Of a stretch of DNA of 28,462 bases, positions 5,273 through 24,891 are shown piece after piece. Origin of the DNA: a virus; IMG/VR virus record IMGVR_UViG_3300044535_000835, positions 1 through 28,462 of that record; one strand, 5' to 3'. Under the pieces are notes generated by a model. It saw only the letters and a program-made list of their open reading frames with translations, searched no databases and was not told the DNA's origin. Within the stretch, counting starts at the first letter, position 1. Every line of letters begins with the position of its first letter. A program made the translations under genes and the position numbers.

Positions 5273-5875
5273 GTGCAAACGGTCGTTATCACGATGCGAG
5301 GCAGTTCTCGCATCCCGCGCCTACAAAGAAACCTTGATTCCGCTGGAGTCACGGACTACCGCATTTTCTATGGCCTGAACGGCGCGAAGTCTGGCCTGAA
5401 AGCGAGCATTCCGTACGAGATAGATGCCCCCGGCTCAGGCTACCTCATCTGCTCCAAGCACGTTGGATGCAGCATGTCCCATTGGATGCTGTGGAACGCG
5501 CTGGATTTCGATCCTTCCACGCCGGACATGGTGATGGTTCTAGAGGACGACATCCTATTCCGTCCGCATTGGCGCGAAACAATCGAACGTGCGCTGACAA
5601 AGCTGCCTGAGGATTGGGACATTCTCTATCCCGGCTCCTGTTGCGCGCATGGAAAGCTCTCACGCGAGCTGGATTCAAACCTTTTCGAAGGAATGCCACT
5701 TTGCACTCACTGCTACATCGTCCGCAAGAAGGCTCTCAAGACTCTCATCGAGACGAACGAAGAGGTCTTCGCTCCAATCGATTTGCAGATGTACTTCAAG
5801 AGCCGCCAGCATCTGAAATGCTTCACAATTTTTCCGCGAGTTGCCGATCAAGAAGACTGTCCTTTGGCCGACTAA
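5273..5875 (+). CDS. GT25-like glycosyltransferase (first copy)
   Basis: A 200-aa protein resembling family 25 (LPS biosynthesis type) glycosyltransferases, which are GT-A-fold enzymes using nucleotide sugars. An N-terminal strand with basic residues is followed by a conserved SHW (69-71) and the acidic metal-site motif LEDDI (90-94). Further on are LPEDWD, YPGSCCA, CTHCYIV and PIDLQM. A GTG start is used, 5 bp after the methyltransferase stop. The later half matches the second glycosyltransferase downstream block by block, so the two are paralogs. Donor and acceptor are unknown. Confidence 0.8.
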   Translation: MQTVVITMRGSSRIPRLQRNLDSAGVTDYRIFYGLNGAKSGLKASIPYEIDAPGSGYLICSKHVGCSMSHWMLWNALDFDPSTPDMVMVLEDDILFRPHWRETIERALTKLPEDWDILYPGSCCAHGKLSRELDSNLFEGMPLCTHCYIVRKKALKTLIETNEEVFAPIDLQMYFKSRQHLKCFTIFPRVADQEDCPLAD

Positions 5876-5879
5876 AATT

Positions 5880-6470
5880 ATGGGTTCACCTTTCAATGGA
5901 GACACGTTCATCGAGCAGGAGTTTCTTTACCTCAAAGAACGCTTCGAGCTGACGACCGCTGTCGAAACCGGCACTCACGAAGCGGACACCACCGTTTGGT
6001 TGGCCAAGAACTTCCTCAAGACTGTTTCGTGCGAGCTGAACCATGATCTGGTTGAGAAGGCTAAGGAGAAGTTCAAGCGCGAGAATGTCTACGTCGAGAT
6101 GTTCGAGGGCAGCAGTGATGCCTGCATGAACTGGTTCATTCCGCATCACGGAATTGGACACGACACGATCTTCTTTCTCGACGCTCACTGGAACGACTAC
6201 CTGCCGCTGCTCGAAGAGCTTGAGGCAATTAATCGCTACGACCTGCATCCAGTTATCGCCATCCACGACTTCAAGGAACCGACCGGACAGCTTGGCTACG
6301 ACAGCTACAACGGCCACGACATCTGTCTCGGCTACATCAAGGACAAGCTGGACGCAATTTACCGCGCCAAGACGTTGACGCAGAAGTACGGCTACAGCTT
6401 CTACTACAACCACCCCAGCCGCTCTACCGGCGCGCGTCGCGGCATCATCTACATCCTCCCGAACCGATGA
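5880..6470 (+). CDS. class I SAM-dependent methyltransferase-like protein
   Basis: A 196-aa protein with a Rossmann-like order: AVETGTHEADTT (27-38) as motif I, CELN (51-54) ending the second strand, FFLDAHW (98-104), then a late IAIHDF strand. The pattern fits a SAM-dependent methyltransferase but differs from the first methyltransferase in this cassette, so it is not a simple duplicate. The ATG at 5880 follows the GT25 stop by 4 bp; an in-frame ATG at 5841 inside that gene is less likely. The stop overlaps the next start (ATGA). The substrate is unknown; alternation with the glycosyltransferases implies a shared pathway. Confidence 0.7.
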   Translation: MGSPFNGDTFIEQEFLYLKERFELTTAVETGTHEADTTVWLAKNFLKTVSCELNHDLVEKAKEKFKRENVYVEMFEGSSDACMNWFIPHHGIGHDTIFFLDAHWNDYLPLLEELEAINRYDLHPVIAIHDFKEPTGQLGYDSYNGHDICLGYIKDKLDAIYRAKTLTQKYGYSFYYNHPSRSTGARRGIIYILPNR

Positions 6471-9901: not shown

Positions 9902-9933
9902 ATCCCCCGATGGTTTCGAAGCCACCGGGGGAT
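9902..9933. terminator. bidirectional intrinsic terminator
   Basis: Imperfect inverted repeat ATCCCCCGATGG / CCACCGGGGGAT around a TTTCGAAG centre, giving a GC-rich stem with one A-C mismatch. On the plus strand it is followed by TTTGCTTT; on the minus strand by TATTTGTTT. It lies between the scaffold gene and the 3' end of the converging minus-strand lysis block, the expected site for a two-way terminator. Confidence 0.85.
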
Positions 9934-12961: not shown

Positions 12962-13396
12962 TCAATGATCGGCCAAGATGAACCAAGCGACACCGTTTGA
13001 CATGATCGTCAAAGCATTCCATTGAGGAGTCAGCGTGTGAGTCGCCGCGCCGTCAATCGTCTCGCTCGCGTAGCCATCAACAATGACCGCATTCGCGCCG
13101 CTGTTGATGCGCTTGAAAGCGTAGATACGACCCGGAACCAGAGCGGCAGGCGGCAAGGTCATCGTAATCGCGCCAGCGGCGGCATCGCAGATGAGCAGAT
13201 AATCTCCGCTCACCACATTGCCGGTCGTCGTAACGCTCCGGTATGCGCCGCGCGTCGCGCCGCCACCCTGAAGATACGTCGCGATGCGATTCTCTAGCGC
13301 GAGCTTGGCCAGCTCGACCTCCCACGGAGAACGACATCCAAGCGATGCCGCCTCATTGATCAGCGTCTCCGCCTCATCGCATGTGATAATCGCCAT
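12962..13396 (-). CDS. virion-type protein with helical N-terminus and beta-rich C-domain
   Basis: A 144-aa protein. Residues 1-40 (MAIITCDEAETLINEAASLG and following) resemble the N-terminus of the next gene downstream. Residues 50-144 are beta-rich and resemble fibre or appendage modules: SVTTTGNVVSGDYLLICD, ITMTLPPAALVPGRIYAFK, ANAVIVDGY and a final WNALTIMSNGVAWFIL. The position between capsid-side genes and the tail fibre agrees with a structural role. The downstream gene begins right after its stop. No enzyme motif is seen. Confidence 0.7.
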   Translation of the reverse strand: MAIITCDEAETLINEAASLGCRSPWEVELAKLALENRIATYLQGGGATRGAYRSVTTTGNVVSGDYLLICDAAAGAITMTLPPAALVPGRIYAFKRINSGANAVIVDGYASETIDGAATHTLTPQWNALTIMSNGVAWFILADH

Positions 13397-13412
13397 ATCG
13401 TTTTCCTATTGG

Positions 13413-13694
13413 TTAGGCCATCGGGCCGCCACGACCGCGCTGCATCACCTCGGCGATGAAACCGCCGCCGCCCTCGGATTCCATCTCCTCGCCCTCCTCC
13501 TCCTCATAGCCACGCTCGGCCATCTTCTTGCCCTTCGACTTCTTCTCGTAGCCGGGGATAGCCATGCCATCAATCTCGATGAACTCAGCCTTGCCGTTCT
13601 TGCCGAGGACAATCGTCGCCATCGTCTGGAACGCTTCGCCTTCCTTCAAATTCTCGGGAATCTCAACGCCTTCGGGGAGAGTAAAACTCGGCAT
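13413..13694 (-). CDS. small acidic protein of unknown function
   Basis: A 93-aa protein starting MPSFTLPEGVEIPENLKEGEAF, with a short beta-type core (MATIVLGKNGKAEFIEIDG), a Lys-rich patch (KKSKGKKM) and then a strongly acidic Glu-rich run ending in a Gly-rich basic tail. It looks partly disordered. It lies between the HNH gene and the small virion-type genes, all on the minus strand, and was probably adjacent to the capsid gene before the HNH gene arrived. Family unknown. Confidence 0.65.
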   Translation of the reverse strand: MPSFTLPEGVEIPENLKEGEAFQTMATIVLGKNGKAEFIEIDGMAIPGYEKKSKGKKMAERGYEEEEGEEMESEGGGGFIAEVMQRGRGGPMA

Positions 13695-22919: not shown

Positions 22920-22948
22920 TTGACACGACTCCAGACAACTGCAACACT
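22920..22948 (+). promoter_or_regulatory. possible promoter for the HTH and recombination genes
   Basis: A consensus -35 TTGACA (22920-22925) with a 17-bp spacer and a weak AACACT (22943-22948) as -10. Transcription would begin near 22955, leaving a leader of about 105 nt before the HTH gene. Confidence 0.4.
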
Positions 22949-22972
22949 ACGTCCGCAACGATGACCAATTTT

Positions 22973-23051
22973 TGGCAACTGGAAATAGAGAGCAGGGAAA
23001 GCCTGCTACGGGGTATTGGATTTTCTCCCCTGATTGAACATCCAGTTGCCA
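22973..23051 (+). ncRNA. candidate three-way-junction leader RNA
   Basis: A perfect 10-bp closing stem, GGCAACTGGA (22974-22983) with TCCAGTTGCC (23041-23050), extended by a T-A pair, encloses 57 nt. Inside are AGCAGG / CCTGCT (22991-22996, 23002-23007) closed by GAAAG, and GGGG / CCCC (23010-23013, 23027-23030). The start codon of the HTH gene follows 11 nt after the closing stem, and no SD is seen between. The arrangement resembles a cis-acting leader or riboswitch. I do not recognise a known class. Confidence 0.5.
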
Positions 23052-23061
23052 TCTCCCTTTC

Positions 23062-23340
23062 ATGAAAGTCTTCACTGCCAAAGACACGGCAAAGATGCTG
23101 CAAATCTGCACCGAGACGCTTCGGCGGATCGTTCGCACCGATGGCATCCAGCACCGGAGAATTGGCCGACGCATTTTGTTCACCGAAGCCGACATCGCGG
23201 CGATTCTTGAGAGTCGAGCGATGACCGGAGCCGTGAACCCCTACGCACCAAGAAAACAAAAACAACAAACCGAGAATACAAATGAGCAGCAGCAACCTAG
23301 TCCCGACATCACCGCAGCCCCTGACGCCTGTCAGCCCTGA
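23062..23340 (+). CDS. excisionase/MerR-type HTH protein
   Basis: A 92-aa protein whose first 55 residues form a winged helix-turn-helix of the excisionase (HTH_17) type: VFTAKDTAKMLQICTETLRR, then IQHRRIGRRILFTEADIAA ending ILE. The basic wing (HRRIGRRI) would contact DNA. The C-terminus is Gln/Pro-rich and disordered. It overlaps the next gene by 59 bp. Such proteins act as excisionases or as small transcription regulators; no integrase is visible here, so a regulator is at least as likely. It is preceded by the structured leader. Confidence 0.8.
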   Translation: MKVFTAKDTAKMLQICTETLRRIVRTDGIQHRRIGRRILFTEADIAAILESRAMTGAVNPYAPRKQKQQTENTNEQQQPSPDITAAPDACQP

Positions 23341-24100
23341 CAGCTCCGAATTCTACTCCCGCATCGGAACCTCCCTTGAAGCAGTCAAGGAGCTAGGATC
23401 ATGGATTGCCCGAAGCGGTGTCTTCAATTGCCAGAAGGACGAGCAAGGCAACATGATTGCCCTTGAATGTCTGGCAACGCGCAAGACTCCGTTCGACTTC
23501 AAGCGAGAGTTCCATTTGGTGAACGGCTCCCTGACGATGCGTTCCGATGCGATGCTCGCCGGATACCGCACTCGCGGCGGCAAGGTCATTTGGAAGCAGT
23601 TCGATTCGACCGCTGCGATTGGCGTCTGGAAGTATGACGGCAACGAATGCGAAATCGGATTCACGACCGAGGACGCCAAGATTGCTGGCCTGCTACCGGC
23701 CAAGCCAGGAAGTGGCTGGGCTAAAGACCCTTCCGCAATGCTCCGTGCGCGCTGCATCTCGAAGGCTATTCGAATGCTCGCCCCTGAAGTTGTTGCTGGC
23801 GTTTATACCCCAGAGGAGGCCGCTGACTTTGCTTCGTCACCACCAACACCCGCTCCCACCGCTACGACGCGCCAGACGGTCAATGTGACGCCGGAACCGG
23901 CCTTCTCGCTGGTCGAGAAGCTGGAGCAGATTCTTGAGCCACATTCCGACATCGCCAATGCGTTTTTGCTGTCGAAGAACCTGATCAAGGAAGGTCAGAA
24001 CTTCCGCGATGTATCCACCAAGGTGGCCAACATGATCATCGCCGACAGCGACAGTTTCCTGATCAAGGCCAAGGCGTTCTCCGAACCGACCATCGAATGA
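23282..24100 (+). CDS. RecT-like single-strand annealing protein
   Basis: A 272-aa protein. The core has WIARSGVFNCQ, PFDFKREFHLVNGSLTMRSD, a gly-rich strand (AGYRTRGGKVIWKQF) and AMLRARCISKAIRMLAPEVV followed by AGVYTPEEAAD. The last motif matches the RxxxxxxxA-R-x-L-x-P pattern of RecT-type recombinases. It would anneal complementary single strands at double-strand ends. The Pro/Thr-rich linker (183-205) separates a helical C-domain. The stop overlaps the RecE-like gene (ATGA), the classic two-component arrangement. Confidence 0.75.
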   Translation: MSSSNLVPTSPQPLTPVSPDSSEFYSRIGTSLEAVKELGSWIARSGVFNCQKDEQGNMIALECLATRKTPFDFKREFHLVNGSLTMRSDAMLAGYRTRGGKVIWKQFDSTAAIGVWKYDGNECEIGFTTEDAKIAGLLPAKPGSGWAKDPSAMLRARCISKAIRMLAPEVVAGVYTPEEAADFASSPPTPAPTATTRQTVNVTPEPAFSLVEKLEQILEPHSDIANAFLLSKNLIKEGQNFRDVSTKVANMIIADSDSFLIKAKAFSEPTIE

Positions 24101-24891
24101 GCATTCTAAACCGCCACGTTAATTTCGACATGGCTGCTGAGAAGTACCATGCCGTTGACGCTCTCTCGAAAAGCATGATGTCCAAGATCCTCAAGTCGCC
24201 AGCGCACTACAAAGCCGCGCTGGAGGAGCATCAGGAGCCGACGAAGGCTATGCAGATGGGTACGGCGATTCACACCGCTGTTCTCGAACCGCACTTGTAC
24301 TCGCAGGTCGTAGCTGTCGTTCCGCCGGATATCGATGGCAGGACGAAGGAAGGCAAGGCATGGAAAGAGGCGCATAAGAGCCGTATCCACATGACTCACG
24401 CCGAAGACATCGATGTGCAGGGTGTCGCGAACAGCGTCCGCCGCCATCCGTTCTGGGACATCATTCATCTCAATCACAAGATTGAGGCATCTGTCTTCGC
24501 TCAAGATGAGGACACTGGCCTACCTCTCAAAGCGCGTCCCGATCTGTGGGTCGAGGATCATACGCTTGTCGATGTGAAGACCACCGACGACGCGACGCCC
24601 GAGGGTTTCAGCCGCACGGTGACTAGCTTCGGCTACCACATTCAGGCCGCGCACTATCTGGAGATGACAGGTGCGGAGAACTTCATCTTCGTAGCGGTCG
24701 AGCGTAAGGCTCCGTATGCGGTTGGCATCTACAAGCTGGATGCCGAATGGCTTCAGGCCGGTGCGAACCTGCGTAGGAAAGCCATCACGCTGCTGCACGA
24801 ATGCAAAGCACTGGACAGTTGGCCAGCCTATCCGACCGCAGTCCAAACCCTTTCTTGCCCAAAGTGGGTCTTGAATAAGTCAGAGAGCTGA
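24097..24891 (+). CDS. RecE-like 5'-3' exonuclease (PD-(D/E)XK)
   Basis: A 264-aa nuclease matching the C-terminal domain of exonuclease VIII/DUF3799 type proteins. It has ALSKSMMSKILKSPAHYKA (22-40), GTAIHTAVLEP (55-65), E130, RPDLW with D149, VDVKTT with D159 and K161, and GYHIQAAHYLEM (179-190). The E..D..DxK set is the catalytic PD-(D/E)XK core; the Gln/Tyr helix is the RecB-type motif. It would resect double-strand ends for the annealing protein encoded just upstream. Full length for the nuclease domain; no truncation seen. Confidence 0.85.
   Translation: MSILNRHVNFDMAAEKYHAVDALSKSMMSKILKSPAHYKAALEEHQEPTKAMQMGTAIHTAVLEPHLYSQVVAVVPPDIDGRTKEGKAWKEAHKSRIHMTHAEDIDVQGVANSVRRHPFWDIIHLNHKIEASVFAQDEDTGLPLKARPDLWVEDHTLVDVKTTDDATPEGFSRTVTSFGYHIQAAHYLEMTGAENFIFVAVERKAPYAVGIYKLDAEWLQAGANLRRKAITLLHECKALDSWPAYPTAVQTLSCPKWVLNKSES

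Follow-up and report, generated by a model that had tools for sequence, protein, structure and literature searches.

Several described RNAs invite comparison with the element reported here. The purine, TPP and glnA riboswitch aptamers are three-way junctions, and some riboswitches occur in tandem. In phage lambda, a nut RNA stands between a gene and a terminator in the order cro-nutR-tR1, and its boxB hairpin carries a pentaloop. The put RNA of phage HK022 binds polymerase and antiterminates; it consists of two stem-loops without an enclosing stem, and the putL copy sits just downstream of PL (PMC9378689). Hammerhead ribozymes and related motifs are persistently associated with phage genomes (PMC6155905), while the RAGATH-18/IS607 TnpB guide RNA is a conserved RNA of about 73 nt associated with mobile elements (PMC11061315).

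The RNA studied here comes from an IMG/VR virus record of 28,462 bases, analysed over its full length and referred to as the window. An initial annotation had proposed a folded RNA at positions 22,973 to 23,051, formed by a perfect 10-bp stem that encloses two hairpins and ends 11 nt before a start codon. The RNA is present at those coordinates, and the three-way junction is supported by the fold and, more strongly, by compensatory changes in relatives. The outer stem (P1) was correctly recognized but measures 11 bp, and the start codon is as close as claimed, although the gap to the ATG at 23,062 is 10 nt (Table 1). The minimum free energy is -33.3 kcal/mol, compared with -20.6 kcal/mol for shuffled sequences (z = -3.85; 1 of 200 shuffles equally stable). 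Covariance model R1 scores 89.8 bits at this site, with no other strong match in the window, versus 16.5 bits for the reverse strand of the RNA.

Table 1. Positions of the three-way-junction RNA, its parts and the adjoining features in the window
Feature	Position	Strand	Basis or remark
Promoter-like pair TTGACA - 17 nt - AACACT	22920..22948	+	by eye
Possible 34-aa upstream ORF (MTNFWQLEIESRESLLRGIGFSPLIEHPVAISLS), running through the whole RNA	22961..23065	+	TGA overlaps the HTH ATG
Whole three-way-junction RNA	22973..23051	+	minimum free energy fold, model score, 99-member alignment
P1 5' strand (TGGCAACTGGA)	22973..22983	+	pairs with 23041-23051
J1/2, conserved AAUAGAG	22984..22990	+	UAGAG near-invariant, partly by construction in pattern-found members
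P2, 6-bp stem AGCAGG/CCTGCT, pentaloop GAAAG (family: GAGAN)	22991..23007	+	
A, then P3 (CGGGG...CCCTG), variable loop with UAUUGGAUUUUCU	23008..23032	+	GG/CC pairs conserved
J3/1, conserved AUUGAACA	23033..23040	+	UUGAACA near-invariant, partly by construction in pattern-found members
P1 3' strand (TCCAGTTGCCA)	23041..23051	+	10 nt upstream of the HTH start
HTH_17/excisionase-like gene	23062..23340	+	Pfam PF12728 E 4.7e-11; PHROG excisionase
RecT-like annealing protein	23282..24100	+	PHROG 561 1.9e-24; Pfam RecT 4e-5, just under the Pfam cut-off
RecE/exonuclease VIII-like PD-(D/E)XK nuclease	24097..24891	+	DUF3799 1e-28; PHROG 412 2.2e-78

Relatives were collected by a RecT search, which gave 80 viral loci, and by a pattern search with the P1 arms, which gave further ones. 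Upstream of the HTH/RecT genes, the P1 arms of different phages are dissimilar yet still complementary, for instance GGCAACTGG/CCAGTTGCC, GGCAACCAAG/CTTGGTTGCC, CTGCAATCAG/CTGATTGCAG and CAGCGTTCGGG/CCCGAACGCTG. In an alignment of 26 sequences (A1), 92.6% of the pair cells are intact and 17 of 22 pairs have changed on both sides, including 10 of the 11 pairs of P1; covariation reaches 0.586, as against 0.242 in shuffled controls and no more than 0.125 when partners are slid. The 99-member alignment (A3), which was fitted to the model, has 90.1% of its cells paired, two-sided change at 20 of 22 pairs and a covariation of 0.762 (0.209 when shuffled). All six pairs of P2 show two-sided changes and its length is constant at 6 bp. 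Homologs lacking compensatory changes had been named beforehand as the outcome that would speak against the fold; when this was examined, first in 26 and then in 99 sequences, P1 and P2 were found to compensate.

The wider search employed patterns restricted to unpaired letters of the core plus a few letters of P3, followed by scoring with R1, whose E-values are rough; it yielded many members on unrelated contigs. Since UAGAG, GRG, ACRRGG and TGAACA served as search letters, their invariance beyond the RecT set is in part a product of the search; P1 and P2 pairing was not a criterion in the pattern scans but was rewarded by the model applied afterwards. One pattern of unpaired core letters returned 82 distinct instances, 78 of which have five or six of the six P2 pairs, and 72 of these 78 also pair 5 bp or more of P1 without interruption, versus about 13% for swapped partners. 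The 99 members fall into 49 clusters at 72% identity, with a G+C content between 32% and 64%. Their consensus reads P1 - GGAAUAGAG - P2(6 bp) - GAGAN - P2' - ACAAGG - L3(6-65 nt) - CC - UUGAACA - P1', in which the junction letters are AAUAGAG, ACA and UUGAACA and about 20 unpaired letters are near-invariant. P3 is a short GC stem whose loop spans 6 to 65 nt across the family. An unsupervised scan with weighting covered every column pair and 15-nt flanks; the pairs of P1 and P2 rank at the top and those of P3 are weak and lie below them. The same scan detected neither a pseudoknot nor an alternative (anti-P1) pairing backed by covariation. A pseudoknot between an upstream CCAAU and AUUGG in L3, considered for the RecT family, was rejected because several members break it and the unsupervised scan does not show it. 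A pyrimidine tract after P1 was likewise set aside, being strong in the RecT family but weak under cluster weighting.

Within inner P1 and P2 there are 45 G-U cells versus 4 A-C cells, and selection therefore acts on the plus-strand RNA. A DNA-level element (operator, MITE or attC-like site) was rejected on this excess, on the reverse-strand score of the window RNA and on the unrelated P1s of tandem copies. What the alignments describe is a conserved three-way junction at the RNA level, with a P1 that is variable but always paired. Temperature sensing, one of the roles first suggested, is disfavoured because the unpaired core is conserved and a melting hairpin would not need it; a thermosensor thus appears unlikely. 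A further explanation holds that a short coding ORF, a leader peptide beginning MTNF, is the conserved unit and the structure secondary. In the window, L003, L007, L011, L065 and others, the frame from the ATG at 22,961 does span the whole RNA, and its stop overlaps the start of the HTH gene. However, the frame closes early in L019, L041, L017 and L024, the ATG is missing in L010, L025, L168 and L160, the L3/J3 lengths are no multiples of three, and P1 and P2 compensate through unrelated sequences in other phages. As the main explanation, this is already largely refuted, and we regard it as highly improbable.

Rfam 15 has no match to the window RNA at the gathering score or at E<=10, which bears out the earlier statement that known riboswitch classes do not match. 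At loci with divergent relatives, searches at E<=5-10 returned no credible match to the RNA but only weak chance matches far below gathering scores, and true tRNAs were detected at L162. The literature searched holds no description of the family under any name. It is well supported that the RNA represents a previously uncatalogued phage family of the kind 'conserved structured regulatory RNA'. With the purine, TPP and glnA aptamers it shares a P1-enclosed three-way junction, conserved junction letters, a position upstream of a start codon and, sometimes, tandem copies; it differs in the missing Rfam covariance match, in the lack of a ligand-linked gene set and in its occurrence at transcript 3' ends as well. 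An aptamer-like conserved structure in an mRNA leader is found in the window family but not in all relatives. As for the RAGATH-18/IS607 TnpB guide RNA, the likeness lies in a conserved RNA of similar length associated with mobile elements; the present RNA has no Rfam match, and no TnpB is among the top neighbour families listed.

In the window, the RNA is followed by an operon that continues beyond the exonuclease gene with genes for an SSB-like protein and ThyX. The promoter-like TTGACA of the initial annotation lies at 22,920-22,925, and many relatives of the HTH/RecT family have a TTGAC 35-54 nt upstream of P1, but the toolkit promoter scan did not score the TTGACA/AACACT pair as a consensus promoter. 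No Shine-Dalgarno sequence is visible by inspection before the start codon, as had been noted. Across the HTH/RecT family, the end of P1 is 9-15 nt from an ATG, GTG or TTG although the spacers differ. The 34-aa ORF begins at the conserved ATGACCAATTTT, and comparable stop/start overlaps (TTGA, GTGA, TGAATG) occur in several relatives and are lost in others. Five relatives (L002, L010, L021, L024 and L025) carry a free-standing ORF with zinc-finger, HNH-like features between the HTH and RecT genes (about 5370-5950). The best annotated phage relative of the window RecT is that of Verrucomicrobia phage P8625 (33% identity), a sequence likeness that may give a hint on the host; the covariance model found no copy of the RNA at the P8625 RecT locus. 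Elsewhere in the window, there is a strong bidirectional terminator-like hairpin at 9903-9932 and another terminator-like hairpin on the minus strand at 14562-14535.

The family is spread over very different, mostly uncultured phages, far beyond those with RecT. Whole virus records that were scanned hold one to three copies each, except nine records with a pattern match that the model rejected. Tandem copies with differing P1s are present in L011, L014, L016, L066 and others. L304 (3509-3722, three copies in one contig), L339 (record G013, 13394-13553) and L338 likewise carry the RNA as doublets or triplets, every copy having its own P1. Annotated phages searched with the RNA core or its flanks gave no convincing match, and a scan of 201 Chloroflexota genomes, run without a positive control, gave 0 matches to the family. 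The copies lie on the coding strand in intergenic gaps, frequently beside genes for SSAPs, exonucleases, SSBs, T7- and N4-like RNA polymerases, DNA polymerase A, RuvC/RusA resolvases and helicases; a PAPS reductase gene is also among the neighbours. The tie to HTH-RecT-RecE genes drawn at the outset holds for the window, where the RNA is their leader, but the same RNA accompanies other genes in unrelated phages.

The genomic settings are diverse. The window family has the RNA as a promoter-proximal leader, in L148, L219 and L153 it fills a narrow gap between genes, and a start codon follows within about 20 nt of P1 in L148, L219, L228, L273, L162, L198 and L304. Elsewhere it lies upstream of RNA and DNA polymerase genes or 6 nt upstream of a tRNA gene (L162), and in L250 it closes an operon and faces an ORF that is convergent. 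Phages of a marine group have the RNA after an ORF of ~480 aa, and the next gene, about 40-135 nt away, is HTH-like; many of these phages have a second long hairpin after the RNA, and some have a promoter-like TATAAT before the HTH-like gene. This second hairpin, ~80 nt long and downstream of the RNA, has conserved internal-loop letters GUGAGUG ... CGCGAAAC ... GAGGGAA and was seen at the marine loci L182, L185, L174, L178, L202, L230, L183, L177 and L239; by eye, its orientation is forward in some phages and reverse complement in others. In L176, L338 and L208, the RNA or its tandem copies are followed, at a distance of at least a few hundred bases, by a DUF932-like ORF. Because the RNA also precedes terminators, polymerase genes, a tRNA and a convergent ORF, a leader that controls the next gene is not the whole story.

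In L144, L151 and L254, the RNA comes directly after an SSB gene and is followed by an intrinsic terminator; it also precedes a terminator in L187, after a longer gap, and in L186 and L181, after another gene. This order of gene stop, RNA and terminator, like that of lambda cro-nutR-tR1, counts in favour of a put- or nut-like antiterminator, in which the RNA would bind the elongating host RNA polymerase, with or without a factor, and allow terminator read-through in early operons. A universal partner of this kind would account for the breadth of the family, and the number of copies per phage record agrees with it. The GAGAN pentaloop resembles boxB loops. The resemblance to a nut site extends to the early-operon position in some phages and to a stem with a GNRA-like pentaloop; in contrast, no boxA is seen by eye in the family, the stem is free to covary, and P1 and P3 are additional. 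With HK022 put the family shares a structured RNA of about 70-80 nt after an early phage promoter, present in one to few copies per phage, and its promoter-proximal position in a recombination operon compares with putL (PMC9378689). However, put is built of two adjacent stem-loops of ~70 nt with a triplex, whereas the present RNA is a three-way junction enclosed by P1, which put lacks (PMC9378689). Moreover, a strong intrinsic terminator downstream of the RNA on the plus strand is missing from the window and from most RecT relatives, and the next ORF in L250 is convergent. On balance, antitermination is rather unlikely.

The same range of positions (5' leader, intergenic gap, 3' end, the site before the tRNA in L162) could fit a self-cleaving ribozyme of a new type, with early phage mRNAs as the transcripts it processes. 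Its conserved unpaired core, its varied phage neighbours, such as the RuvC-like resolvase and PAPS reductase genes, and the persistent link of hammerhead-type motifs with phage genomes (PMC6155905) agree with such a role, and like the hammerhead and other phage-linked ribozymes it is a small conserved junction RNA in intergenic regions of phages. The hammerhead core (CUGAUGA/GAA/UH between three stems) is nevertheless absent, no Rfam ribozyme matches, and circular permutation was rejected after a dedicated scan that found only tandem copies. Cleavage is considered unlikely.

Occurrence at 5' and 3' transcript ends alike, tandem duplication and triplication, and terminators directly after the RNA, as for 3'UTR small RNAs, would suit an RNA that binds a protein or acts in trans. 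It might be the operator to which a phage or host protein binds, or else a decoy released from leaders and 3' ends that titrates a host or defence factor. Against this stands the lack of a gene family common to the neighbourhoods, with at most 3 matches per family among 104 neighbouring proteins, and we consider this role unlikely.

Our preferred, if tentative, explanation is that the RNA controls early phage transcripts in cis. The conserved junction would fold compactly and bind a partner that is widely available, either a metabolite or a factor of the host (the ribosome or polymerase, for example), and binding would stabilise P1. In the window, P1 ends so close upstream of the HTH start codon that, when closed, it would mask the site where the ribosome lands and would thereby set expression of the HTH-RecT-exonuclease-SSB genes. 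Elsewhere, an RNA module beside a terminator would act on transcription or on the transcript 3' end. Covariation, the G-U excess, pairing in pattern-found instances, the lack of an Rfam match, the recurrent TTGAC, co-directional intergenic placement beside replication and recombination genes, tandem copies and short P1-to-start gaps were counted for control in cis, though short distances can also have genome compaction as their source. Counted against it were neighbouring genes so diverse that they point to no single obvious metabolite, several groups with the RNA at transcript 3' ends, the distant next gene of the marine group and the lack of an anti-P1 pairing. Interpreting the RNA as a leader suits the window family but not all relatives.

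Near-invariant unpaired letters and covarying stems have been kept in 49 clusters that differ widely in G+C content, and the RNA must therefore serve a phage need. The RNA-level structure, its conservation under purifying selection in phage early-gene regions and its wide distribution among phages next to early DNA-metabolism genes are established, and the RNA may act in cis on the early transcripts. A partner shared by very different hosts is probable. The chances seem evenly balanced that it constitutes a new functional RNA class (a riboswitch ligand class, a nucleolytic ribozyme or a factor-independent antiterminator), which would control or process early replication and recombination transcripts in many unrelated phage lineages. 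Since the RNA adjoins replication and recombination genes, it offers a handle on early-gene timing in uncultured phages.
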